This document shows positions 13,393 through 25,970 of a DNA stretch of 45,534 bases, in pieces. Origin of the DNA: an uncultured Oscillospiraceae bacterium (GTDB lineage: Bacteria > Bacillota > Clostridia > Oscillospirales > Oscillospiraceae); NCBI GenBank assembly GCA_947627715.1, contig CANQXK010000019.1, positions 1-45,534 on the forward strand, written 5' to 3'. Made by a program: the position numbers and the translations under genes. Numbering within the stretch: position 1 is the first letter of the stretch; every line of letters starts with the position of its first letter. A model generated the notes under the pieces. That model was not told where the DNA came from. It did no database searches and saw only the letters and a program-made list of their open reading frames with translations.

Positions 13393-13430
13393 AAAAAATC
13401 CCTGAATTTCGCGAAATTCAGGGATTTTTT
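13393..13430. terminator. Perfect 19-bp palindromic bidirectional terminator
   Basis: The arms 13393-13411 and 13412-13430 are exact complements, with A6 on one side and T6 on the other. It serves both the plus-strand M23 gene and the convergent minus-strand YihY gene. The inner stem TCCCTGAATTT/AAATTCAGGGA recurs in the typA terminator (43651-43682). Confidence 0.93.
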
Positions 13431-14427: not shown

Positions 14428-15729
14428 TCATTCCCCGCAGAAGAGCTTGACGGCCTCGGCGTACATCTCGCCGCCCAACAGCAGCTCCGCCACGTCCACC
14501 CGCTCGTCCGGCTCATGCATATGCACGTCCGAGCCGGGGAACTCCGCGCCGAAGGCGACGCCGCCCTCGATCTCGTGGACATACGTGCCGCCGCCCATGG
14601 ACTGGGCCTGGCACCGCTCCCCTGTGTACTCCTCGTAAATCTTCAAAAGTCCCGTCACAAGGTCCGACTCCGCCGGCGTGTGGTGGGGCGCGGAGATACT
14701 GGCCGCCTCAAGCTTCACCGCGCCGCCCAGCGCCGCCTGAAACGCCCCGGCGATCTTCTCCGCGTCGCCGCAAACGGGGACGCGGCAGTCCACGTGGGCC
14801 GTCAGGCCCTTGTCGCCGTACTCCATCACGCCCAGATTCACCGTCAAGGCCCCTGAGAGCGCGTCAGCGCACGCGGCGCCCACGGCGCGGCCCGCATTGT
14901 CCCCGTGGGGAAAAGCGCGGCACAGCGCACGGAAAACGTCAAATCCGCCGCCCTCCATGGCGGCCAGCCGCTCCACCATGGCGGTCACGGCGTTGTCGCC
15001 CTCGTCGGGGGTGCTGGCGTGAGCGGCGCGGCCCACGGTCTCAAGCGTCTCCCCGTCGCTGAGGGCGCACCGGCACACCGCCGGGACGGCGTTCACCACC
15101 GACCCGCCGGACAGGGAGAGGACGCGCCGCCCCTCCCCGGTATACGCCGGGGCGGTCAGCACAAAATGCGCCCGGCCCTTCTCGGTATTCACCACGGGGA
15201 ACGAGCCGTCCGGGGTGAACACCCTCGGCGGCATCGCGTAATGCTCCATATACCACGCCACATCGGAGGACCCGCACTCCTCATCCGAGCCGAGGATGAG
15301 CTGCACCTTGCGCTTCACAAGCCCCAGCTCCCTGGCGCACAGCAGGGCGTACAGGGCGCACACCGCCGGCCCCTTGTCGTCGATGACGCCGCGTCCGTAG
15401 ATTTTCCCGTCCACGCGCTTCATCTCCCACGGCCCGGTGACCTTCCACTCGCCTGCGGGCGGCACCACGTCCAGATGCGCCAGGATCCCCAGCTCCGGCT
15501 GGCCCTCGCCCAGCTCCACCAGCAGCACCCGGTCCCCCAGGACCCGGCCCTCCAGCCCGTGGGCGCGGGCGATCTCCAGCGCCTTTTCCAGCGCCCGCCG
15601 TGGTCCCGGCCCGTAGGGCGCGCCCGGCGCGCTCTCGCCCCGTGCACTGTCCACCGCCACAAGCGCGGCGATGTCCGCCAGCATCCGCTCCTCGTTGGCC
15701 TCAAAAAATTCTCTGATCCGTCTGTCCAT
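14428..15729 (-). CDS. M20-family dipeptidase (PepV/Sapep-like)
   Basis: The start is ATG 15729 (MDRRIREFFEANEERML), supported by GGAGG 5-6 bases upstream. The frame extends further upstream but would pass through the promoter. The 433-residue di-zinc peptidase shows LGILAHLDVVPPAGEW (first His and Asp), GRGVIDDKGPAVCALYAL (bridging Asp), GSDEECGSSDVAWY (Glu/Asp) and AEFPGSDVHMHEPDERV (last His). A lid/dimer domain lies between. PepV-type enzymes cleave Xaa dipeptides in the cytoplasm, so this is a peptide catabolism enzyme. A near-consensus promoter lies at 15758-15786. YihY follows downstream. Confidence 0.93.
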   Translation of the reverse strand: MDRRIREFFEANEERMLADIAALVAVDSARGESAPGAPYGPGPRRALEKALEIARAHGLEGRVLGDRVLLVELGEGQPELGILAHLDVVPPAGEWKVTGPWEMKRVDGKIYGRGVIDDKGPAVCALYALLCARELGLVKRKVQLILGSDEECGSSDVAWYMEHYAMPPRVFTPDGSFPVVNTEKGRAHFVLTAPAYTGEGRRVLSLSGGSVVNAVPAVCRCALSDGETLETVGRAAHASTPDEGDNAVTAMVERLAAMEGGGFDVFRALCRAFPHGDNAGRAVGAACADALSGALTVNLGVMEYGDKGLTAHVDCRVPVCGDAEKIAGAFQAALGGAVKLEAASISAPHHTPAESDLVTGLLKIYEEYTGERCQAQSMGGGTYVHEIEGGVAFGAEFPGSDVHMHEPDERVDVAELLLGGEMYAEAVKLFCGE

Positions 15730-15757
15730 ACGCGCCTCCGAACAAAAAAGTGTAATT

Positions 15758-15786
15758 ATTGTACCACGTCCAGAGAAAATAATCAA
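15758..15786 (-). promoter_or_regulatory. Sigma-A promoter of the M20 dipeptidase gene
   Basis: Minus strand TTGATT (15786-15781), a 17-bp spacer and TACAAT (15763-15758). Confidence 0.8.
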
Positions 15787-15931
15787 GCACTTGGAAATAA
15801 CTGGATAATACACGCGCAAGGTCGCCGCCTTTCGCGCAAATCCGTGAAAAGATTCCGAAATCCCCGAAAAACCGTCAGAAAACGCTGTCGAATCCGTCCG
15901 AAACTTCCTGTTTTATTCTTCCATGTGTTTC
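15787..15931 (+). other. Upstream region of the first SLH gene, no clear promoter
   Basis: This stretch precedes the first SLH gene. The only promoter-like element is GATAAT at 15804-15809, without a good -35 box. CCGAAA-type words repeat several times between 15850 and 15905. No structured leader is visible, unlike the second SLH gene. Confidence 0.4.
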
Positions 15932-15998
15932 TAAGGAGGAAACACTACATGAAGACTCTGAAGAAGACCCTGTGCTTGGTCTTGGCGGTAGTCATGGT
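15932..15998 (+). repeat. Left arm of a 67-bp perfect inverted repeat (RBS and signal peptide of SLH gene 1)
   Basis: This is identical at all 67 bases, including silent codon positions, to the reverse complement of 22459-22525. It covers TAAGGAGGAAACACTAC, the start codon and the first 16 codons plus two bases. Identity stops sharply on both sides. Confidence 0.92.
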
Positions 15999-18666
15999 AG
16001 TTGGCGTGCTTATCATCCCCGCGGGCGCCGCTGACTACAAGGACTATACCGACAAGGAAGACATCAAGCACGAAGAGGCCGTCAAGGTCCTGACCTATCT
16101 TGAGATAGTGTCGGGCACCGGGAGCGGCTTCGATCCCAACGGGAAGCTGAACCGTGCGGCGGGCGCTACGATGCTTGCACGTATGATGCTGACCCGTAAA
16201 GGAGCCGATGGGCTTCCCGTATCGGAAACGTTTGACGATGTAGAATCCGCCGGTTACAGTTGGGCCGCCGGCGCGATTTCCTACGGCGTGATGAACGGGT
16301 ACATCAGGGGCCACGGGAACGGCAAGTTCGATCCTGCTGGCGCTCTGACCGGGTATCAGCTGGCGAAGATGCTGCTGGTCGCCATTGGCTACGCCGAGCC
16401 TGAGAAGTATGACGGCGCTGGCTATGAGACCAAGGTTTATCTGGACGCCACCAATGCCGGCCTGTTCGACGGACTGACCAGCTTCGACCCGACCAAGGGC
16501 ATGACCCGTGACGACGCTGCCCAGATGATGTTCAAGGCCATGAACTGGAGCAAGGTCGCCGGCACCACCAAGGCTTATGCTGCCTTCAATGCTACAAATG
16601 ATCAGCAGGGCACCATTACCTTCGATTCCTTCATCGAGGCGTATCTGTATGTGGATCAGCACAATGACGATCCGGCAAATGTGAGCGATCAGTGGCACGT
16701 TGGAAGCGTTGATCCCAAGACCGGCGCTATCATCGGCGACAAGTACGGCCTTGTTGAAAGCACCTACTCTGATCCGTTCCAGCGCGTGTCCAAGAGCTGG
16801 CAGAAAAACGGCAAGAACGTTGTTGTTCTCGACTTCGCTGCTAACCTTGAGTACGAAGGTGCGGTCAGGGTCAACACTGTTCTTTCCGCAATGGGCATTA
16901 CCACTCCGGGCAAGCAGGTTGACTTCACCGTCTACGAGGACGGCGGCGTGGCGGATACCTCCACTTATGCGGACCAGCAGAATCAGTCCACCAACACTCG
17001 GAGCTTCGGCCATGCCGGATCCACTGTTCAGGTCGTGATCGATTCCGAGACAGCCGCTACTGTCTATGTCATTAATACCTATGCGTATCAGCTGAAGAAG
17101 GCCAATATCACCCCCGCGAAGGCCGCCACTGGAACCGATCCTGCCGTGAAGGCTTCGGTCCAGCTTCCCAATTCCACGAACGCAGCGGCCGGTACCACTA
17201 CGGCTATGCTTACGTTTGAGACGGCGGACTTCAAGGAGAACGATGTTGTCCTCTATAACATCAGCCTTGGCGGCGCAGCGGCGGGAACTTCCGAGTCCGT
17301 TGTCAGCGCGGTAAAGGCCCCGATGCTGGATTCCGGCGCTGTGGTGCGCAGAGCCGCTAACGGCACTGTTACCATCAACAGCAAGAATTATGCCGCTTCT
17401 TTCAAAGCGCCTACCACCGGAACGACGAATACAGCTCTTAACACCATCGACGGCACCAAGTATGTCTTCTACGGAGACCTCCAGGGCAACATCATTCTTG
17501 CCACTGACACTCCCAGCGATGATGACAGCGATACCCTTGCCAACTACATCTATGTGTTTGATTTTGCCACAAAGCCCGCCAGCAGCACCGGCGGTTCTGA
17601 CCTCTTCAACACCGGCGCTACCACCAACGCGGCTCAGGCTCAGGCCAAGGTCGTTTACCTTGACACCGGCGTTGTCGATGTCGTTGATGTGGCTGTTGTC
17701 CAGTCCAGCGGCAAATGGTATCTGATGAATCCCAACGGCACTGCCAATACGGATCTTGAGATCACCGATACTTTTGCCACAGCTCATCCGTTTACTTCTC
17801 AGGTTGGCCTCCATGCGTACACTGTCCGCAGTGACGGAACCTACGCCATGAGCTTCACGGCGGCCGCTGATAATTCCGGCAGCTTCACCGGCACTACCCT
17901 GAGCATCAAGAAGGATCAGGTTGATACCGGCCTTACTGTTACGAGTGGGTCAAAGCATCTGCTTGCGAACAGCAAAACCGAGGTCATTGTCGCCACTCTG
18001 GCTCAGACCGATGGCGTGATCGTCGGCGCTGACATCGACAAGTATGTCGGAGTCTCCCAGTTCCCGAACAACGCGATCACGGTCAATCGTGCTACTCATA
18101 CTGGTACGACCCTTATCATTGACGAGAAGGACGGCTTTGCGACTCGCATCGTTATCCTCAACAATGCTCCCGACACCGCCGAGGATGTGTCTCTTGCCGT
18201 TTACCTCGGACTGGGCGGCAAGGTTCTGAATGAGGAAGGCAACGGCTCTGATCAGCTCTACAGGTTCCTCATTGACGGCGAGGTCGTTGAGGTCGCTGAC
18301 GGCGGTAGCTTCATGACCGACTTCACCGGCACCAACAACGTCGGTAATGTTTACAGCCTTACCGTTGACGGCGGCAAGATCACGGCCGCACCCAGTTCGA
18401 AGACCGCTGCAAGCAGCCTCGAGGATAAGGCGATCGTCGTGGCCGAGTCCAACTACATGGTTATCGGCACTGACAACACCTACGTGAAGCTCGCTTCCGA
18501 CTGCGTGTTCGTCTACAGAACGGGTAGTAGTGCTTCCGACTATAGGTTCAGCGTTGTGACCGATGTTGACGTTGATGCCTACAAGGTTGCGTCTGTCTAC
18601 ACCGATGGCACTGATGATGCTACCAAGGATGCTCACCTGGTTGTCCTCGTTGCTAAGTCTGCCTAA
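15949..18666 (+). CDS. Large SLH-domain surface protein 1 (S-layer-like)
   Basis: The start is ATG 15949, 8 bases after AAGGAGG; the frame is open further upstream but without signals. The 905-residue protein has a signal peptide at 1 to about 27 (MKTLKKTLCLVLAVVMVVG, cleavage after AGA). Three SLH repeats cover about 35-200 (for example FDPNGKLNRAAGATMLARMM, GNGKFDPAGALTGYQLAKML, MTRDDAAQMMFKAMNW) and anchor it to wall polymers. The remaining 700 residues are Thr/Ser/Asp/Ala-rich beta-type sequence without a recognised enzyme domain, as in S-layer proteins. Codon use is more AT-rich and even than in neighbours, as is common for very highly expressed or variable surface genes. Its 5-prime end is identical to that of SLH gene 2. 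A strong terminator follows. Confidence 0.9.
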   Translation: MKTLKKTLCLVLAVVMVVGVLIIPAGAADYKDYTDKEDIKHEEAVKVLTYLEIVSGTGSGFDPNGKLNRAAGATMLARMMLTRKGADGLPVSETFDDVESAGYSWAAGAISYGVMNGYIRGHGNGKFDPAGALTGYQLAKMLLVAIGYAEPEKYDGAGYETKVYLDATNAGLFDGLTSFDPTKGMTRDDAAQMMFKAMNWSKVAGTTKAYAAFNATNDQQGTITFDSFIEAYLYVDQHNDDPANVSDQWHVGSVDPKTGAIIGDKYGLVESTYSDPFQRVSKSWQKNGKNVVVLDFAANLEYEGAVRVNTVLSAMGITTPGKQVDFTVYEDGGVADTSTYADQQNQSTNTRSFGHAGSTVQVVIDSETAATVYVINTYAYQLKKANITPAKAATGTDPAVKASVQLPNSTNAAAGTTTAMLTFETADFKENDVVLYNISLGGAAAGTSESVVSAVKAPMLDSGAVVRRAANGTVTINSKNYAASFKAPTTGTTNTALNTIDGTKYVFYGDLQGNIILATDTPSDDDSDTLANYIYVFDFATKPASSTGGSDLFNTGATTNAAQAQAKVVYLDTGVVDVVDVAVVQSSGKWYLMNPNGTANTDLEITDTFATAHPFTSQVGLHAYTVRSDGTYAMSFTAAADNSGSFTGTTLSIKKDQVDTGLTVTSGSKHLLANSKTEVIVATLAQTDGVIVGADIDKYVGVSQFPNNAITVNRATHTGTTLIIDEKDGFATRIVILNNAPDTAEDVSLAVYLGLGGKVLNEEGNGSDQLYRFLIDGEVVEVADGGSFMTDFTGTNNVGNVYSLTVDGGKITAAPSSKTAASSLEDKAIVVAESNYMVIGTDNTYVKLASDCVFVYRTGSSASDYRFSVVTDVDVDAYKVASVYTDGTDDATKDAHLVVLVAKSA

Positions 18667-18699
18667 GTAAATCTCCCCGCGTAAAATTCCACAGCACCT

Positions 18700-18735
18700 C
18701 CCGCCCCCGGGCTTCGGCCCGGGGGCGGGTTTTTT
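18700..18735 (+). terminator. Rho-independent terminator of SLH gene 1
   Basis: A perfect 13-bp GC stem (18700-18712 with 18717-18729), TTCG tetraloop and six T. Confidence 0.95.
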
Positions 18736-18834
18736 CTCCTTTTTTCCCTCTGCGGGGATTATGTCACGCGGCGGGAACATTGCGCCCAATTTACGTGTCT
18801 TGCGCGTGAATTATAAAATCCGGCGTAAAAAGGC

Positions 18835-18863
18835 TTGAAAATTTCCCAAAAAGCCCTCATAAT
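18835..18863 (+). promoter_or_regulatory. Sigma-A promoter of the recombinase gene
   Basis: TTGAAA (18835-18840), a 17-bp spacer and CATAAT (18858-18863). A short inverted repeat TTTGC/GCAAA (about 18869-18887) lies between promoter and gene and could be an operator or recombinase site; this is a guess. Confidence 0.7.
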
Positions 18864-18911
18864 GCTCATTTGCCGTAAATTTTGCAAATACTGAGTATGG
18901 AGGGTTGATTT

Positions 18912-20000
18912 ATGAGAAATCCAAACGGCTACGGCGGCATATCGAAGCTGCCGGGAAACCGCCGCCGCCCATTCCGGGCCAGGGTGACGGTGGGGTGGAC
19001 CGAGCGCGAGGGGGGGCGGGTGCAGCGTTACGCCACCATCGGCTATTTCGCCACGCGGGGCGAGGCCATGATGGCGCTGGCGGACTACAACCGCGCCCCG
19101 TGGGACACCAACGCCCGGTCCATGACCTTCAAAAACGCCTTTGAGCAGTGGAGTCCCGCGTACTTCGAGAAGTACCCCAGCACCCGGCGGGTCACCGAAT
19201 GCGCCATGGTGTTTTGCCGCCAGATCTGGAACCTGCCCATCCGCGATCTGCGGGCGTGGCACCTTCAGGAGGTCATTGCGGGGATGGACGACAAATCGCG
19301 GGGGTATCAGTCCAAGGTGCGGTCGCTGATGCATATGCTCTACCGCTGGGCCATGAGCCGGGACATCACCCAGCGGGATATGTCCCAGTACGTGGAGCTG
19401 ACGGCGGCGGAGCGCGAGTCGCCCCGCCGGGTGTTCACGGCGGAGGAGGTGGGGCTTCTGTGGCGGAAACTCCGGGAAGGCGAGAGCGGCGTTGTGGCGT
19501 CGCGGTACTACACGGGGCTGGGGCTGCTGGAGTCGGTGCTGGTGCTGCTCTACACGGGGATGCGCGTGGGGGAGCTGCTGTCGCTCCGGCGGGAGGACGT
19601 GTACACCCAGGCGCGGTACATCGACCTGCGGGGGACCAAGACGCGGGCGGCCCGGCGGACGGTGCCTCTGCACCGGCGGATCGTCCCGGTGGTGGAGCGG
19701 CTGCTGGCCCTGCCGGAGTCGGACTTTCTGCTCCCTGGGAACGACGGGCAGGGCATGACGTACAGCGCGTATAAGGGCTGGTTCGACAAGGCGATGCCGG
19801 CCCTGGGGATGAGCCACACGCCCCACGACGCGCGCCACACCTTCATTTCCGCGCTGGACACCGCCGGAGTCCGCCGGGGGGCGGTGAAGTTTATCGCCGG
19901 GCACAGCCAGCACGACGTGACGGACCGTTACACCCACAAGGACCTGGCGGAGCTGATCCGGGAGATCGACAAGATGGAGTACGGCTGCCCCGGCGACTGA
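18912..20000 (+). CDS. Tyrosine site-specific recombinase between the two SLH genes
   Basis: The 362-residue protein has three parts: an N-terminal arm-type DNA-binding domain (1 to about 62, NGYGGISKLPGNRRRPFRAR), a SAM-like core-binding domain (about 75-170) and the catalytic domain (about 180-360). All catalytic residues are present: Arg218 (TGMRVGELL), Lys243 (GTKTRAAR), His305-x-x-Arg308 (HDARHTF), His331 (GHSQHDV) and nucleophile Tyr340 (RYTH). It therefore looks active. GGAGGG lies 7 bases before the ATG. No other phage or conjugation genes and no excisionase lie nearby. Standalone integrases with this N-terminus are, from memory, common in Clostridia. It is placed inside a 6.5-kb segment bounded by the 67-bp inverted repeats, which makes a role in S-layer gene inversion a testable idea. 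Confidence 0.93.
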   Translation: MRNPNGYGGISKLPGNRRRPFRARVTVGWTEREGGRVQRYATIGYFATRGEAMMALADYNRAPWDTNARSMTFKNAFEQWSPAYFEKYPSTRRVTECAMVFCRQIWNLPIRDLRAWHLQEVIAGMDDKSRGYQSKVRSLMHMLYRWAMSRDITQRDMSQYVELTAAERESPRRVFTAEEVGLLWRKLREGESGVVASRYYTGLGLLESVLVLLYTGMRVGELLSLRREDVYTQARYIDLRGTKTRAARRTVPLHRRIVPVVERLLALPESDFLLPGNDGQGMTYSAYKGWFDKAMPALGMSHTPHDARHTFISALDTAGVRRGAVKFIAGHSQHDVTDRYTHKDLAELIREIDKMEYGCPGD

Positions 20001-20012
20001 GCCGGAAATGAG

Positions 20013-20045
20013 AAAACCCGCCCTGCGGCAGTGCCGCAGGGCGGG
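20013..20045 (-). terminator. Rho-independent terminator of SLH gene 2
   Basis: A 13-bp perfect stem (20017-20029 with 20033-20045) followed on the minus strand by TTTT. It also separates the convergent recombinase gene. Confidence 0.9.
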
Positions 20046-20078
20046 AGTGCTATTGGGTCAGGGTTGCGCGGGGGGGGA

Positions 20079-22508
20079 TTACTCGGCGTCTGCGGTCACA
20101 TAGATGAGGTCAATGGTCTTCGCATCCTTATCATAGGAAACCGCGATCTTAAGATTATCGTTGTCTTTGTTCGCCTTCAGGAGATCAGCCATGGTCTTAA
20201 TCTCATCGGGAGGAGTGGTCTTTGTGCCGCGAAGATCAACAACCTTCGCATTAGTGGCATCGTACAGATCGGTACCGAGTGTCACATAGTAGATGCTGTT
20301 GACAAAAACAATCTTGTCCTTGTAATTCTCCTCGGCGGCAACACCGATCTCCAGCTTTGTAAGCGAGTAACCGCCGGTCGTGCTGTTGATCGTGTAGGAG
20401 TTCCAACCGAGTTTGCTAGTGAGATCGCTGTCAGAGCAATTGAACTCGATCTTTTCGCCGTCCACATAAGCCTCAAACACGTTGATCTCTTTGCCGTCAT
20501 CGCCAAGGGCTGTTCCGATCTTATCCTTCTTGACAACGTAGAGGATCTTGTCGCCCTTTACAGGATCAACGGTGTTGTCGTCGTCGATAACATAGACGGT
20601 GGTAACGAGCTTGTTGCCGTTGGAGTCCTCGGTCAGCACGACGAAGTCCTCGCCGCTCTTATCCTTCTCGTACTTAAGCGCAACACCCTGAACGCCGGTC
20701 TTGACATCAACCGTAAGGCCAGCCTTGGAGCCGCTGATATAGACGAACTTGACGTCGCTGGAGAAGAAGTTCTTGGCGCCGGTCTTAATGACCTGCATCT
20801 GCTTGTCGCCGGAATTGATCTCAAGCGATGCCCTGTCGGTCTCCTTGGTGACCTTGTAGACGCCGCCCTTGGTAATAGTGGTGGGGATGTTAGCATCGGC
20901 CCCCGTGAACTTGTAGGCGCCGTCAGCGATCTCGTAGGTGTAAGCACCGGGATTTGCAACCGTGGCAACGCTATCCGCATCAACCTTGCCGGTGACAACA
21001 GTGCCGTCGGAGAGAACGCCCTGGAACATGGTGTCCGTGGACTCGCCGTACTCGGTCACGGGCTTATATGTGGCAGTGAGATAGATAGCTTTGATGGAGT
21101 TGTCAGTGGCCTTCACTGCGCTGATGAAGTCCATGATATAATTGTTCGCATCGGTCAGGAAGATGACATCCACTGTTGCGCTGAGTTCAGGATTCGTTGT
21201 ATAGTTTTTCATTTTTACAGCCGATTCCTCGTACTTCTTGCCATCAACAGTATACACAAAAGAGGTGGATTTCTGCGTGAGCTTGCCCTGCACCATATTG
21301 GCGGGTTCAACGCTGAGGATTTCGTTCTCGCTGTTGAGGACAACGATCACATAGCTGTTCACGGAATAGGACGACAGAGCGTTGTAGAAAGCATGGTTTT
21401 TACCATCGGCCTTGCTCTCGACTTCGATCGGCTGATCATAGTTTGCACTGCCGCAACCATGCCCCAGGGTGACCACATCGGCGGTGGGGGCAGCCGTCAC
21501 CTTGGCAAGCTCAGGCTTGATCACCACAACATCAGTAATCTTGCCATCTTTGGCATAAACCTCGACGGTCTTGCCGTGACCAGTGAGGCCCTCAATCTTA
21601 GTGGCTTCATCGGCAGATGTAGAACCCTCGGTTCCATTCTCGGTGGCCACAAGGCTGGTCTCATATGTATAGCCCTTAAGGTCCTTCTCCACGGTGCTGC
21701 TCTTGTCGGTGTAAACCTTCACAGGGGTCTCAACAACCTCGTAAACGACATCATCGCCATCCTTATACTGATAGGCGATAGGACGGCCAAAGTCATCTGT
21801 CTCGTCGGTAGTAGGTGTCTTTTTGAGTCCGAGATTATCCTCAATGAGCGCAGGGGCATCTTTCTCGTCAGAGACATATGTGCCGCTGTCCTTATCAAAC
21901 TTGGTGGTGTTGCGCGTTACGGTGATAGCGTTCATAGCCATCTGAGCGGCCTGCTCACGGGTGAGCACAACCTCTTTTGTGAGATTAAGCCCGTCCATAA
22001 GCCCGGCTTTGCGGGCGGCAACGTAAACGCTGGTCGGCCAATAGGAGCTGTAGTCATCGTTGATGCCCATGGCGATAAGCAGCATCTTCGCAAACTGGAA
22101 GTTGGTCAGGGTCCCGTCAGGAGCAAAGCTTCCGTCCGGGTTGCCGGCGATAACGCCCTTTTCACTGGCAAAAGCGATGACGTTGCTGGCCCAATGGGTT
22201 ACAGGAACGTCGTAGAACTTCGTCGCGGAAGCGGGAAGATCTTTGGCCAGGTCGGGACCGACCATGACACGCGCGATGATGGTCGCGCCCTCAGCGCGGG
22301 TGAGATGGCCCTTCGGGGAGAAGTAGCCGTTGGCGCCCTGCAGCACCTTGAGAACGTTGAGTAAGTCAACCGCCTGACTGTACTCTTCGCTGATCTGGGC
22401 ATCGTCCTTGAAGGTGTCATCGTCCGCGGCAGCCGCCGGGAGGACAAGAACACCCACAACCATGACTACCGCCAAGACCAAGCACAGGGTCTTCTTCAGA
22501 GTCTTCAT
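20079..22508 (-). CDS. Large SLH-domain surface protein 2 (S-layer-like)
   Basis: The 809-residue protein has a signal peptide almost identical to that of SLH protein 1 (MKTLKKTLCLVLAVVMVVG, cleavage after AAA). SLH repeats cover about 33-195: YFSPKGHLTRAEGATIIARV, HWASNVIAFASEKGVIAGNP, SFAPDGTLTNFQFAKMLLIA, LTREQAAQMAMNAI. The rest is a Lys/Asp/Thr/Val-rich beta-type ectodomain with no recognised enzyme motif and differs completely from SLH protein 1. Codon use is less GC-biased than in flanking genes. It is transcribed towards the recombinase. Its upstream region carries a consensus promoter, a long structured leader and a repeated RNA-like element, none of which is seen at SLH gene 1. It may be the expressed copy; this is inference. 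Confidence 0.9.
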   Translation of the reverse strand: MKTLKKTLCLVLAVVMVVGVLVLPAAAADDDTFKDDAQISEEYSQAVDLLNVLKVLQGANGYFSPKGHLTRAEGATIIARVMVGPDLAKDLPASATKFYDVPVTHWASNVIAFASEKGVIAGNPDGSFAPDGTLTNFQFAKMLLIAMGINDDYSSYWPTSVYVAARKAGLMDGLNLTKEVVLTREQAAQMAMNAITVTRNTTKFDKDSGTYVSDEKDAPALIEDNLGLKKTPTTDETDDFGRPIAYQYKDGDDVVYEVVETPVKVYTDKSSTVEKDLKGYTYETSLVATENGTEGSTSADEATKIEGLTGHGKTVEVYAKDGKITDVVVIKPELAKVTAAPTADVVTLGHGCGSANYDQPIEVESKADGKNHAFYNALSSYSVNSYVIVVLNSENEILSVEPANMVQGKLTQKSTSFVYTVDGKKYEESAVKMKNYTTNPELSATVDVIFLTDANNYIMDFISAVKATDNSIKAIYLTATYKPVTEYGESTDTMFQGVLSDGTVVTGKVDADSVATVANPGAYTYEIADGAYKFTGADANIPTTITKGGVYKVTKETDRASLEINSGDKQMQVIKTGAKNFFSSDVKFVYISGSKAGLTVDVKTGVQGVALKYEKDKSGEDFVVLTEDSNGNKLVTTVYVIDDDNTVDPVKGDKILYVVKKDKIGTALGDDGKEINVFEAYVDGEKIEFNCSDSDLTSKLGWNSYTINSTTGGYSLTKLEIGVAAEENYKDKIVFVNSIYYVTLGTDLYDATNAKVVDLRGTKTTPPDEIKTMADLLKANKDNDNLKIAVSYDKDAKTIDLIYVTADAE

Positions 22509-22525
22509 GTAGTGTTTCCTCCTTA
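22459..22525 (-). repeat. Right arm of the 67-bp perfect inverted repeat (RBS and signal peptide of SLH gene 2)
   Basis: Exact reverse complement of 15932-15998. The arms are 6.46 kb apart and enclose both SLH bodies and the recombinase. Confidence 0.92.
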
Positions 22526-22609
22526 ATAAAAATTATTGATTAATTTTTAGCCCGTTACATGAACCGGGCCGAAGTTTATGTAAACGCCAGCCGAAGCCGG
22601 CAGTTACAT
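22526..22609 (-). promoter_or_regulatory. Hairpin-rich proximal leader of SLH gene 2
   Basis: Reading the minus strand towards the gene, three hairpins follow each other: ATGTAA...TTACAT around a CCGGC-TTCG-GCTGG stem (about 22577-22609), GCCCG...CGGGC (about 22551-22570), and TAAAAATTA...TAATTTTTA (about 22528-22552) just before the ribosome binding site. They could control mRNA stability or translation of an abundant surface protein. Confidence 0.55.
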
Positions 22610-22718
22610 CGTCGTCGCAGAACACGCTTTACCTCACCCTCCCTTACGGTCGGGTTCAGGCGCTGTGTTCGCTCCTCCTCTCCCCAAACGATCTTCGATC
22701 GTCCGGGGTCCCCGTTTT
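22610..22718 (-). ncRNA. Structured element R, copy A (leader of SLH gene 2)
   Basis: This 109-nt element matches copy B at 41056-41166 in order, spacing and conserved words (AGAGGAGGAGCGAAC, GCGCCTGA, GCGACGACG). Helix 1 (22682-22708) is CCCCGG-ACGATC-GAA-GATCGT-TTGGGG, where copy B has quite different but still complementary bases. Helix 2 (22665-22670 with 22620-22625) is GAACAC/GTGTTC, while copy B has GAACCC/GGGTTC, a compensatory change. G-U pairs form only on the minus strand, giving the sense of SLH gene 2. The family is unknown to me. Confidence 0.6.
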
Positions 22719-22773
22719 CGCTCGTTACGCCCTTTTGACTTTGCGGGTCTTCCGTTTGTTCCCCCTCTATTCA

Positions 22774-22967
22774 AGAAAAATTTTAGAAATTTTTCTGAAA
22801 GGAGGAGTACGGCGAAGGCACAGGGTTGGGCGGTTCCATGAACCTCCGCCGTACACTTACATAATGAAGACTGTCACCGTTTGGCTTGCGCCGCCCGGCT
22901 CGGTCGACCCTATCAGGTGGTTTGCGGGCGGGGAGGGGGGCGTCAAATACCCGTCTTCCCCGTATTC
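22774..22967 (-). ncRNA. Candidate structured RNA or distal leader directly after the promoter
   Basis: About 195 nt from the predicted transcription start. Helices on the minus strand: CCGCCCG/CGGGCGG (22925-22931 with 22891-22897), GTACGGCG/CGCCGTAC (22847-22854 with 22807-22814), an inner GGTTC-ATG-GAACC hairpin (22832-22844), and a final AT-only hairpin AGAAAAATTT/AAATTTTTCT (22774-22796). It could be a free small RNA (size similar to 6S or raiA RNA) or the distal part of the SLH leader. I could not assign a known family. A plus-strand ATG frame at 22864 lacks a ribosome binding site and is probably not coding. Confidence 0.4.
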
Positions 22968-22973
22968 AAGCCC

Positions 22974-23002
22974 ATTCTATCACATAGTTATCCCAATGTC
23001 AA
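22974..23002 (-). promoter_or_regulatory. Consensus sigma-A promoter upstream of SLH gene 2
   Basis: Minus strand TTGACA (23002-22997), a 17-bp spacer and TAGAAT (22979-22974). The predicted start near 22967 leaves a leader of about 460 nt before SLH gene 2. Confidence 0.85.
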
Positions 23003-23276: not shown

Positions 23277-25970
23277 TCACCTCAAAACGGCCCCAAGCTC
23301 CTTTTTCAGGGCCGCCAGAATGTTCGCCACGGTCTCTTCGGCGTGGTCGTCGGTCAACGTGCCCTCGTCGGAGCGCATCACCAGGGAGTACGCCGTGGAG
23401 CGCGTCCCCTCCGGCACGCCCGGCCCCTCGTAGATGTCAAAGAGCGCCACATCACGAAGATACTTGCCTCCGGCGGCTTTTATGCACTTTTCGATCTGCC
23501 CCACGGTGACCGCGTGGGGCGCGACCAGCGCCAGATCGCGGGTGACGGACGGATAGCGGGGCAGGGGCCTGTACACCGGGTCGGCCCCCTGGCTTTGAAG
23601 GAGCTGCCCGAAGTCCAGCTCGGCGCAGTAAATCTCCCCGTCCACGCCGTAGTTCTTCGCCACGGCGGGGTGTATCTGCCCCAGAACGCCGATGAGGCGG
23701 CCCCCGGCGCGGACCTGGGCGCAGCGGCCCGGATGGTAGGAGGGGTTGGAGGGGACAGGCTCAAACTCCACGTTCTCCGCCCGGATGCCCTTCAGTATGG
23801 CCTCCACCGCGCCCTTGAGGGTATAGAAGTCCATGCCGTCCCCGTAAGCGCCCAGGGTGAGGACGCGGTCCTCCACCGCAAGCTCGCCGCCGGGGTCGGG
23901 CAGGTAGACGCGGCCCAGCTCGTAGAGCTTCACGTCCCTGTTGCGGGCGCTCCAGTTCCGGGCCAGAATCTCCAGCATGGAGGGCAGGGTGGTGGTGCGC
24001 ATGATGGAGGTGTCCTCCCCCAGGGGGTTCAAAATTTTAAAGGACTGGCGGCGGGGAGCGTCAGCCGCCCAGCCGATCTTATCGTAGGCCGTGGGGGAAA
24101 TGAAGGAGTAGGTGATGATCTCGTCATAGCCGCACTGGCGGGCAAGCTCCCCCAGCTTATTCTCCAGCTTCTGCTCGCGGTTGTAGCCGCCGCGCGTGGT
24201 CTGGCCGCGCATGAGGGTGGTGGGAATGTTGTTGTAGCCGTGGAAGCGGGCCACCTCCTCCGCCAGGTCCGCCATCCGGCGCACGTCGCCCCGGAAGCTG
24301 GGGACCGTGACGCGCCGCCCGTCCACCTGGAAATCGAGCTTGCGCAGGATGCGGACCATCTCGTCCTCGGAAACATCGGTGCCCAAAAGGGCGTTGATCT
24401 TCTCCGGCTCCAGCTCCATGTGCCAGGGTTCGGGGATGCGGTTTTGAATGTCGATAACGCCGTCCAGCACCTCCCCCGCGCCCAGAAGCTCCACCAGCTC
24501 ACAGGCCCGGTCCACGGCGGGGAGGGTGTTCATCACGTCCAGGCCCTTTTCAAATTTCGCGCTGGCCTCGGTGCGCATACCCAGGGCCAGCGCGCCCCGG
24601 CGTATGCAGGTGCCGTCGAAGTTGGCCGATTCAAAGACCACGTCGGCGGTGTCGGCCACGATCTCGGAGTTAAGCCCGCCCATGATGCCCGCCAAGCCCA
24701 CGGCGCGGGTGTCGTCGGCGATGACCAGGTGATTGGCGTTGAGCTTTCGGACGTTCCCGTCCAGCGTGGTCAGCTCCTCGCCCTCCTTCGCCCGGCGGAC
24801 GATGATCTTGCCGCCCTTGACGTAGCGGTAGTCGAAGGCGTGCATGGGCTGGCCGTATTCCAGCATCACATAGTTTGTGATGTCCACGATGTTGTTGATG
24901 GGCCGCACGCCCATGGAGCGAAGGCGCTCCCGCATCCACTTGGGGGACGGGGCGATCTTCACGTTTCGCACCATCCGGGCGGTGTAGCGCGGGCAGAGGT
25001 CCGGGTCCGGGGTCTCCACCTTCAGAAGCTCGGCGAGGACGCCGGGGCCGCCGCCCCGCACCGTGGGGGTGTGGAGCGTCAAAGGTTTGTCAAATGTCGC
25101 GGCGGCCTCCCGCGCAAGCCCGATAACGGAGAGGCAGTCAGGCCGGTTGGGGGTGATCTCGAACTCCACCACGCGGTCGTCGGCGTTGATCACGGGCTTG
25201 ATGTCGTCGCCGGGGGCGATCCCCTCCTCCCGGAGGATGAAGATACCGTCCTCGATGCAGTGGGGGAACTCCCGCTGCTCGGCCCGGAGGTCGGCGAGGG
25301 TGCAGACGGACCCGGTTTTGGTGTTGAAGGCCACCATGTCGCCCTCATGAATGTTCTGGCAGGGGGTGAGGATCGACTGCGCCCCGCTCCCGGCGTCCAC
25401 GCCGCAGGGGTAGAGGCCGTTTTCGTCCGCGCCGCCGGCATTGAGTACCCTGGCCGCCACCACGGGGCCGTAAATCTTGTCGCCGGGCTTGATGTCCGCC
25501 GGAATCGACGGCTTTTCGGGGTCGATGGGGTGGTAGTCATTTAAAAGTGCGGCGGCGGTAATGGCGGCGTAGGGGAAATCCCGCTCGTCCAGGCCCAGCT
25601 CCCGGAGGGAGCAGAGCATCCCGTTGGACAAAACGCCCCGGAGCTTGCCCTTCTCGATCCTCTTGCCGCCGGGGAGGGTGGAGCGGTGGAGCGCCACGGG
25701 GACCAGGTCCCCCGCGTGGACGTTCCACGCGCCGGTGACGATCTGGACAGGCTCCTCCCTGCCCACGTCCACCGCGCAGACCCACATATGATCGGAGTTG
25801 GGGTGCTTCTCCATGGAGACGACCCGCCCCACCACCACGCCGGCAATCTCCGCGCCCAGGTCGTGGGTCAGCTCCACCTTGGACCCGGAGAGGGTCATCG
25901 CCTCGGCGAAGTCGCGGTCGCCGGCGTCTATCCGCACGAACTCATTGAGCCATTTTCGTGATAAATTCAT
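23277..25970 (-). CDS. pheT: Phenylalanyl-tRNA synthetase beta subunit with an extra tRNA-binding-like domain
   Basis: The protein has 897 residues, against roughly 790-830 usual for bacterial PheT. The expected parts are present: MNLSRKWLNEFV start, EMAP-type tRNA-binding domain (about 40-130, VVVGRVVSMEKHPNSDHMWV), B3/B4 editing core (VEFEITPNRPDCLSVIGLAR; GIMGGLNSEIVADTADV), B5 domain, catalytic-like fold and C-terminal ferredoxin anticodon-binding domain. The excess sits between GMLCSLRELGL and FPHCIEDGIFIL. It resembles a second, degenerate copy of the tRNA-binding domain (IYGPVVAARVLN, GLYPCGVDAG, QNIHEGDMVAFN). The subunit pairs with PheS as an alpha2-beta2 enzyme and edits mischarged Tyr. 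It follows pheS by 12 bases and is controlled by the T-box upstream of pheS. Confidence 0.95.
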   Translation of the reverse strand: MNLSRKWLNEFVRIDAGDRDFAEAMTLSGSKVELTHDLGAEIAGVVVGRVVSMEKHPNSDHMWVCAVDVGREEPVQIVTGAWNVHAGDLVPVALHRSTLPGGKRIEKGKLRGVLSNGMLCSLRELGLDERDFPYAAITAAALLNDYHPIDPEKPSIPADIKPGDKIYGPVVAARVLNAGGADENGLYPCGVDAGSGAQSILTPCQNIHEGDMVAFNTKTGSVCTLADLRAEQREFPHCIEDGIFILREEGIAPGDDIKPVINADDRVVEFEITPNRPDCLSVIGLAREAAATFDKPLTLHTPTVRGGGPGVLAELLKVETPDPDLCPRYTARMVRNVKIAPSPKWMRERLRSMGVRPINNIVDITNYVMLEYGQPMHAFDYRYVKGGKIIVRRAKEGEELTTLDGNVRKLNANHLVIADDTRAVGLAGIMGGLNSEIVADTADVVFESANFDGTCIRRGALALGMRTEASAKFEKGLDVMNTLPAVDRACELVELLGAGEVLDGVIDIQNRIPEPWHMELEPEKINALLGTDVSEDEMVRILRKLDFQVDGRRVTVPSFRGDVRRMADLAEEVARFHGYNNIPTTLMRGQTTRGGYNREQKLENKLGELARQCGYDEIITYSFISPTAYDKIGWAADAPRRQSFKILNPLGEDTSIMRTTTLPSMLEILARNWSARNRDVKLYELGRVYLPDPGGELAVEDRVLTLGAYGDGMDFYTLKGAVEAILKGIRAENVEFEPVPSNPSYHPGRCAQVRAGGRLIGVLGQIHPAVAKNYGVDGEIYCAELDFGQLLQSQGADPVYRPLPRYPSVTRDLALVAPHAVTVGQIEKCIKAAGGKYLRDVALFDIYEGPGVPEGTRSTAYSLVMRSDEGTLTDDHAEETVANILAALKKELGAVLR

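Follow-up and report, generated by a model that had tools for sequence, protein, structure and literature searches.

The window analysed here is a 45,534-nucleotide contig of an uncultured Oscillospiraceae bacterium (GenBank assembly GCA_947627715.1, contig CANQXK010000019.1, positions 1 to 45,534 of the forward strand). It contains two convergent genes for SLH-domain proteins, A and B, whose 5' ends form perfect inverted arms around the gene of a tyrosine recombinase, hereafter INT. We consider it probable that this arrangement is a DNA-inversion switch for S-layer-type (SLH) proteins, similar to the Xer1/Vpma system. The arms, the gene order, one type of promoter-bearing leader, both orientations of the INT segment among species and silent sites frozen within the arm were all observed. 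We infer that this species switches now.

In the proposed switch, an expression site named P (beside pheT in the window) would provide a strong promoter followed by a long, structured leader that runs up to the recombination site, and this site would extend over the ribosome site, start codon and first codons. Further SLH genes would start with the same site but without a promoter. INT, encoded between the convergent genes, would recombine pairs of inverted sites, and each event would swap the SLH body behind P, leaving frames and signal peptides intact because the crossover would fall inside the shared 5' end. In the window, a 6.6-kb segment would flip between the states P-geneB/M20-geneA and P-geneA/M20-geneB, M20 being the peptidase gene on the left flank; a second segment (~18.4 kb) and dispersed genes appear to be involved as well in relatives. 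The features of the window that enter this scheme are as follows.

15932..15998, + strand: left arm, a 67-bp perfect inverted repeat with ribosome binding site (RBS), start codon and 16 codons (exact comparison; third copy in the own genome).
15932..15986, + strand: candidate recombination site, arm positions 0-54 (near-invariant in 18 INT-bearing genomes).
15932-15967, + strand: block common to all multi-copy genomes, arm positions 0-35 (block intersection).
15949..18666, + strand: SLH gene A, 905 amino acids (aa), same strand as INT, behind a promoter-poor M20-side leader and presumably silent (open reading frame (ORF), Pfam SLH, promoter scan).
18912..20000, + strand: INT, tyrosine recombinase, 362 aa, single copy in the genome (Pfam, six residues invariant in 18/18, copy number).
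20079..22508, - strand: SLH gene B, 809 aa, joined to the promoter-bearing leader and presumably expressed (ORF, Pfam SLH, promoter scan).
22459..22525, - strand: right arm, a 67-bp perfect inverted repeat (exact comparison).
22471..22525, - strand: candidate recombination site in the right arm, positions 0-54 (column counts).
22509..22966, - strand: structured 5' leader of the expression site (motifs kept across the genus, among the leaders listed; fold z -6.0).
22974..23002, - strand: promoter-like site of P, TTGACA-N17-TAGAAT with TG (promoter scan; same type in 29/29 scored P leaders).

A preliminary description, made from the letters of the window, had reported 67-bp perfect inverted arms over the ribosome site, the start codon and 16 codons, and exact comparison agrees with it. 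The segment 15932-15998 and the reverse complement of 22459-22525 are identical at 67/67 bases, and the next base on both sides is different. The outer span of the pair is 6594 bp, and the arms lengthen to 104 nt when 10% mismatch is allowed (90% identity). They contain TAAGGAGGAAACACTACATG, with the ribosome site and ATG included, and codons 1-16 of the two full-length convergent SLH genes. No exact direct repeat of 30 bp was found in the window; the exact inverted 30-mers, among the matches listed, are those of the arms plus one starting at 13393.

When the genome of the window species itself (G000; 100 contigs, 2.64 Mb) was searched for the further 67-bp copies that the same description had proposed to look for, one more was found, also perfect, at the start of a third SLH gene (C9:47106-47172). 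The left and C9 copies are identical over 113 bp and each has 67 bp in common with the right copy. This genome gave 52 SLH-domain matches and three arm copies, all perfect; only some of its SLH genes thus carry the arm. Two SLH-matching stretches of the same genome, on C4 (L035, 7991-8825) and C26 (L036, 5736-6557), are 93% identical over 835 bp, and the arm was not found there. Genes A and B have N-terminal Pfam SLH domains and a secretion signal, the latter read from the sequence by eye; no other Pfam family scored above the cut-off in either protein. The SLH domains, together with the promoter and leader described below, suggest that these proteins form an S-layer.

The recombinase between the arms had been described as having all catalytic residues, and this holds. 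INT matches Pfam Phage_integrase (E 3e-22), as well as seven NCBIfam Xer and integron-integrase models, all below their curated cut-offs. R218, K243, H305, R308, H331 and Y340, which we take to be the tyrosine recombinase catalytic set (RKHRHY), are invariant in 18/18 INT proteins of the genus, which are ~65-80% identical to that of the window.

The distribution of the arm was determined with a 112-bp query against 60 genomes, the own genome included (34 of the genus and 26 outside it). It is present in 33/34 genus genomes, the exception being G004 (83% complete), and absent from 26/26 genomes searched outside the genus. From the fetched stretches, 85 arm copies in 33 genomes were compiled. 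Arm-bearing genes with a complete frame encode 750-1472 aa, except in G009 (255 aa), and copies cut by contig or stretch ends are partial. INT, counted at E <= 1e-30, was found as one copy each in 18/34 genus genomes, and none was shown in 16/34. At least two arm copies are present in 18/18 INT-bearing genomes, as compared to 4/16 INT-lacking ones. In these four (G013, G014, G023 and G030), the pheT-side and M20-side copies both stop at a contig end, so the bin may lack a segment. In 12/18 INT-bearing genomes, INT is flanked on a single contig by two convergent arm-bearing SLH genes. As for the other loci, the INT of G012 has an SLH-like stretch on either side, its contig being cut short of the arms, the locus is cut on one side in G002, G016 and G018, in G033 a single arm-bearing gene is followed by INT and the M20 flank, and the INT contig of G010 has no arm copy. 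Arm-bearing genes were named by their orientation to INT: U when co-oriented with it and D when INT-convergent. Position, conservation and co-occurrence with the arms suggest that INT is the inversion catalyst.

Six relatives of INT were found outside the genus among 394 genomes sampled from the order (36-41% identity, E <= 1e-60). Around them (L170-L175, 16.9-19 kb each) there was no SLH profile match and no exact inverted repeat of at least 22 bp, and INT therefore looks recruited. A mobile element carrying INT was considered; the outside relatives have neither an SLH link nor such inverted repeats in the stretches searched. Two scans of viral contigs gave nothing.

On the promoter side, the preliminary description had assigned a consensus promoter and a structured leader to the right upstream region and no clear promoter to the left one, which our scan bears out. 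The scan used a consensus score with a maximum of 12.5, and sites of at least 10.5 were counted. A TTGACA-N17-TAGAAT site with an extended TG lies upstream of the right arm, at 23002-22974 (11/12 matches), whereas the best coding-strand site in the 600 bp upstream of the left arm has 8/12 matches. The P leader of the window is 458 nt long and folds more stably than 100/100 shuffles (z -6.0); no Rfam family covers it at the gathering threshold. The promoter scan points to gene B as the expressed gene and to gene A as the silent one in this assembly. About 105 bp of this leader (22609-22713) have short matches elsewhere in many genus genomes, often several per genome, and are missing from most P leaders in the leader alignment, among the leaders listed; this part looks like an inserted dispersed repeat.

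The same type of leader recurs across the genus. In 26 genomes, one leader each carries TTCATGT, a motif of the conserved block GTCCGGTTCATGTAACGGGC, or a near variant of it, within its last 50 bases. No genome has two leaders with the P motif once a chance match in G013 (C71, M20 side) is set aside, which was moved by hand to the non-P leaders before leaders and promoters were counted. A promoter score of at least 10.5 was obtained for 29/29 P leaders scored, as compared to 1/43 other leaders; three of the former (G003, G008 and G029) had been put in class P by hand, on the basis of promoter and position, and without them the P count is 26/26, while 13/85 arm copies had too little upstream sequence to be scored. 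The scored P leaders have TTGACA, 17-18 bases, TG, and TAaAAT or TAgAAT. The P leader of G006 is split over two contigs, and P leaders are absent from the copies of G015, G016 and G017. P usually adjoins pheT; it adjoins a region named K3 in G001, G002, G011, G012 and G018. In different species P is joined to U, to D, to the body on the side of region Q1 (G012, G033) or to the body on the side of region K7 (G001).

The extent of the candidate recombination site was derived from site columns, with one majority consensus for each of the 18 INT-bearing genomes. Arm positions 0-54 are invariant except at 28, 31 and 44; deviations of single copies occur at position 36 (G005 C41 right) and at 47-49 (G001 C5 left and G018 C72). 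In the same 18 genomes, 9/11 third positions of codons 2-12 are invariant as compared to 0/11 for codons 13-23 (Fisher 2.2e-4). In nine single-copy INT-lacking genomes, which may be more divergent, 10 of the first 11 third positions vary. Since silent sites are frozen in INT-bearing species and variable just outside the arm site, the constraint acts at the DNA level and coincides with INT. This freezing favours a recombinase site over mere conservation for translation. Each of the 22 multi-copy genomes has an identical 5' block, and the intersection of these blocks is 36 bp, its right limit being set by one G005 copy; if the G005 branch at arm position 36 is due to recombination, a crossover to its left is required. 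A palindrome in the arm, AAGACC-8 bp-GGTCTT, is not claimed as the crossover point; the G005 branch would put the crossover to the left of it.

The preliminary description had also proposed to compare the orientation in close relatives. At the species level, both orientations of the INT segment were found between the same chromosomal flanks (pheT/P and M20). Flanks were compared by marker mapping, which replaced a tblastx clustering of 5-kb flanks that merged most regions. Among the 12 genomes scored, five (G000, G032, G018, G022 and G002) have the INT-convergent gene on P or the co-oriented gene on M20, and seven (G006, G005, G021, G024, G011, G027 and G001) show the reverse state, with the co-oriented gene next to P and/or the convergent one on the M20 side. 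For G001, G002, G018 and G022 the label comes from a single arm or from a cut contig, G001 being labelled by leader similarity alone (33-bp leader), and the second arm of G032 adjoins region Q1 and not the M20 flank. When the labels were placed on the INT tree, in which 6/18 INT rows have none, 5 changes were counted, at least 4 of them forced by well-supported branches. Shuffled labels gave counts as low in 500/500 cases, so orientation is not clustered on the tree. G000 and G006 are sisters (99/95) with opposite states, and their M20-side flank DNA is 90% identical over ~2.2 kb.

These rearrangements bear on the two alternatives that had been raised for the upkeep of the arms, gene conversion and RecA-dependent recombination. 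In the former, there would be no programmed switching: gene conversion would make the 5' ends uniform, translation or secretion would account for their conservation, and the recombinase would be a stray mobile-element gene. Identity within genomes combined with differences between species does resemble concerted evolution, and copies are also present at dispersed genes. However, gene conversion does not reorient the INT segment between fixed flanks, nor does it attach P to different downstream anchors; a comparable promoter occurs in only 1/43 of the non-P leaders scored, and the freezing of silent sites ends at arm position 54. As the orientation of the segment and its adjacency to the flanks do change, we reject pure gene conversion, and we give an explanation without switching hardly any credence.

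A second segment of ~18.4 kb, also between inverted arms, was found in the close relatives G005 (C41, L073) and G019 (C11, L075). The right body of G005 C41 is 97% identical over its C-terminal part to the left body of G019 C11, and the P-linked body of G005 is 80% identical to the right body of G019 C11. Related bodies and the M20 flank have changed partners between G005 and G019. Three contig ends around the 18.4-kb segment of G005 C41 fit coexisting orientations.

The other alternative, which outlives the comparison as a minority explanation, is that the same promoter-swapping inversions are made by RecA-dependent homologous recombination between near-identical 5' ends, INT being a passenger with some other function. 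In its favour, the arms of the window are identical over 67 bp and those of G032 and G027 over as much as 479 and 508 bp, the 18.4-kb segments show no INT, and the INT relatives outside the genus are not linked to SLH genes. What speaks for INT instead is that the 22 multi-copy genomes have no more than 36 bp of identical block in common; its extent is set by one G005 copy, and the G005 branch point would put a crossover within these 36 bp. Moreover, the silent sites frozen over 55 bp in the presence of INT are mostly variable in the nine single-copy INT-lacking genomes, and INT is kept intact and single-copy, while genomes with one arm copy are without it. We therefore regard the RecA explanation as unlikely, though it is the alternative to be taken most seriously.

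Contig ends offer a further view of the inversion switch, and at the same time of the possibility that metagenome assemblers joined flanks through repeats of 50-500 bp and so imitated changes in orientation. In support of such an artefact, 36/85 arm copies lie within 80 bp of a contig end, and 23/36 such ends fit plain repeat collapse in our tally. Two contig pairs of G019 have overlaps of exactly 77 bases, and among contigs starting at an arm the first 77-mer ends at the divergence of the copies in 10/13; k = 77 was deduced for those assemblies from these two observations. G013 and G023 fit k = 127. Many junctions have repeats of at least 77 bp. Shorter ones, which single 77-mers would span, are found at P-geneB in G000 (67), at both arms of G011 (P-U/M20-D, 59-72) and at P-D in G018 (51), and these already hold opposite states, within one well-supported clade in the case of G011 and G018. 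Both states thus remain on short junctions alone, because P-U is present in G011 and P-D in G018 and G000. Misjoining would also not put a single promoter type, a frozen site and INT where they are found. An assembly artefact as the whole explanation seems to us very improbable.

Other contig ends have bases unique to one leader in their terminal 77-mer and terminate at the point where two known bodies of that genome part. There are seven such ends in five genomes:

G001 C5: leader-unique contig end at body divergence.
G005 C41 left: the same.
G005 C51: the same.
G006 C12: the same.
G018 C72: the same.
G019 C11: the same.
G019 C71: the same.

These seven ends fit what would be expected if one leader were joined to both bodies in the sample. 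In addition, G005 C41 right and G019 C36 begin where the leaders diverge. Taken together, the two segment orientations, the joining of P to different SLH genes and the contig ends that fit a leader joined to more than one body support the inversion proposed in the preliminary description.

Several observations weigh against this conclusion. The presence of INT and the number of arm copies are not phylogenetically independent, and several of the 16 INT-lacking bins are incomplete (72-99% complete). The sole non-P leader reaching the promoter score, G012 C103 (L107), has the near-perfect promoter-like site TTGACA-16-TATAAT with TG, which is possibly a second expression site or the promoter of another gene. 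Bodies at orthologous positions are often unrelated, which is not a product of inversion alone. Junction repeats reach or exceed 77 bp in G005 (101-111), G021 (103-122), G024 (95), G002 (96), G032 (479) and G027 (508), and the M20-side junctions share 113 bp (G000) and 82 bp (G006) with the third copy. Orientation calls at such junctions therefore depend on assembler phasing, and because most junctions have these long repeats, the count of 4-5 changes rests largely on the weaker ones; the short junctions alone need fewer than 4 changes on the tree. The assembler k was taken from relatives, so the 77-bp limit may not hold for G000 or G011, and several long repeats had evidently been resolved with information beyond k-mers. 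Leader-unique ends in G003, G011 C19 and G017 have no known alternative body, and the end of G016 C145 is unexplained. The P contig of G006 abuts its partner and does not overlap it, which makes the graph signal ambiguous, and G019 does not show the reciprocal junction that a simple inversion should leave. Contig ends of this kind could also arise from strain mixtures. No INT was shown inside the 18.4-kb segments, so that action in trans must be assumed there. Finally, the window contig is unbroken through both arms, and one orientation is visible in its own sample.

This last point agrees with slow genome evolution, that is, rare inversions over evolutionary time and no reversible phase switch within populations; the changes counted on the tree are likewise events between species. 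However, the contig ends of G001, G005, G018 and G019 fit mixed junctions within single samples, as strain mixtures could too. We judge slow evolution to be a poor candidate, somewhat behind RecA in probability, and retain the INT-dependent switch as the preferred reading.

The switch might extend further. In its widest form the whole chromosome would be a shufflon: one INT would act in trans on all arms, the 6.5-kb, 18.4-kb and large inter-arm stretches would invert, one promoter would reach every SLH gene of the family, new bodies would be recruited and the N-terminal SLH regions would evolve in concert. This extension is tentative, and we lean slightly against it.

The SLH bodies themselves change rapidly. 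Body orthology was tried as a test of flipping and failed, as bodies diverge too fast. At G000:C9 (L034) and G006:C1 (L098) the flanks are orthologous, up to 92% and 87% identical, and the C-terminal SLH bodies match best elsewhere; therefore bodies are replaced or fast-diverging where no second arm is known. In G032:C13 and G027:C4 the arm identity of 479 and 508 bp spans much of the SLH region, and recent conversion or exchange is likely to lie behind it.

The remaining features of the window are the two flanks and two hairpins.

14428..15819, - strand: flank F1, gene of an M20 peptidase that points away from the left arm, with the ORF coordinates as listed (Pfam Peptidase_M20; flank found in relatives).
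18700..18729, + strand: terminator-like hairpin after gene A (terminator scan; 8 sites found in the scan vs. 8.0 expected by shuffling).
20017..20045, - strand: terminator-like hairpin 3' of gene B (same scan, with the same 8 sites vs. 8.0 expected).
23277..25970, - strand: flank of P, pheT (Pfam tRNA_synthFbeta, B3_4 and others; flank found in relatives).

If the proposed switch is real, members of this genus of uncultured gut Oscillospiraceae alter their surface coat through programmed inversion, as is reported of mycoplasmas and Campylobacter fetus, and this would probably affect phage attack and host recognition. It would also help to explain why assemblies of this genus break frequently at these genes. 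The candidate 55-bp site, which overlaps the start codon and signal peptide and recurs at genes across the chromosome, offers a compact model of promoter capture that can be tested.

Among known systems, the sap locus of Campylobacter fetus reportedly combines S-layer proteins with one promoter, which lies on an invertible segment. Its conserved 5' regions are long and the mechanism is largely linked to RecA, although RecA-independent inversion is also said to occur. S-layer-type proteins and a single promoter are thus shared with the locus described here, whereas the proteins appear to be unrelated (Pfam SLH here, with no other Pfam family above its cut-off) and a tyrosine recombinase lies inside the segment here. 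In Lactobacillus acidophilus, active and silent S-layer genes, slpA and slpB, are said to be swapped by inversion of the chromosomal slp segment; that system has two genes, probably of another protein family. Chromosomal inversion is mentioned in PMC5893755. The present locus differs in having the recombinase inside the segment, extra dispersed copies and a promoter site that recurs across the genus.

A tyrosine recombinase also controls a clostridial cell-wall protein by inversion in the RecV/cwpV system of Clostridioides difficile, where inversion of a 195-bp segment at 21-bp repeats switches the one gene downstream ON/OFF and the recombinase gene lies at another place (PMC2784873). The difference is that cwpV is a single gene turned ON or OFF, whereas here whole genes would exchange behind one promoter.

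The closest counterpart is the Vpma/Xer1 system of Mycoplasma agalactiae, grouped with vsp of M. bovis and vsa of M. pulmonis, in which Xer1 is a tyrosine recombinase. The system has a unique promoter, several silent surface-protein genes and a recombinase gene at the locus, inversion linking the promoter to a silent gene, and a putative recombination site at -1 to -72 relative to the start codon (PMC2268961). The design is the same as here, with one promoter, putative sites at 5' ends and a recombinase at the locus. The two differ in that Vpma is one locus of lipoproteins with its putative site upstream of the start codon, whereas here SLH proteins of Oscillospiraceae are concerned, copies are dispersed on several contigs and the site spans the RBS, start codon and signal-peptide codons. 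Listings and the beginnings of abstracts in a literature search contained no description of such a switch for SLH proteins of this family. What sets the present case apart from these systems is the use of SLH proteins of Oscillospiraceae, a site placed over the start codon and signal peptide, INT inside the segment that would flip, and dispersed partner genes.

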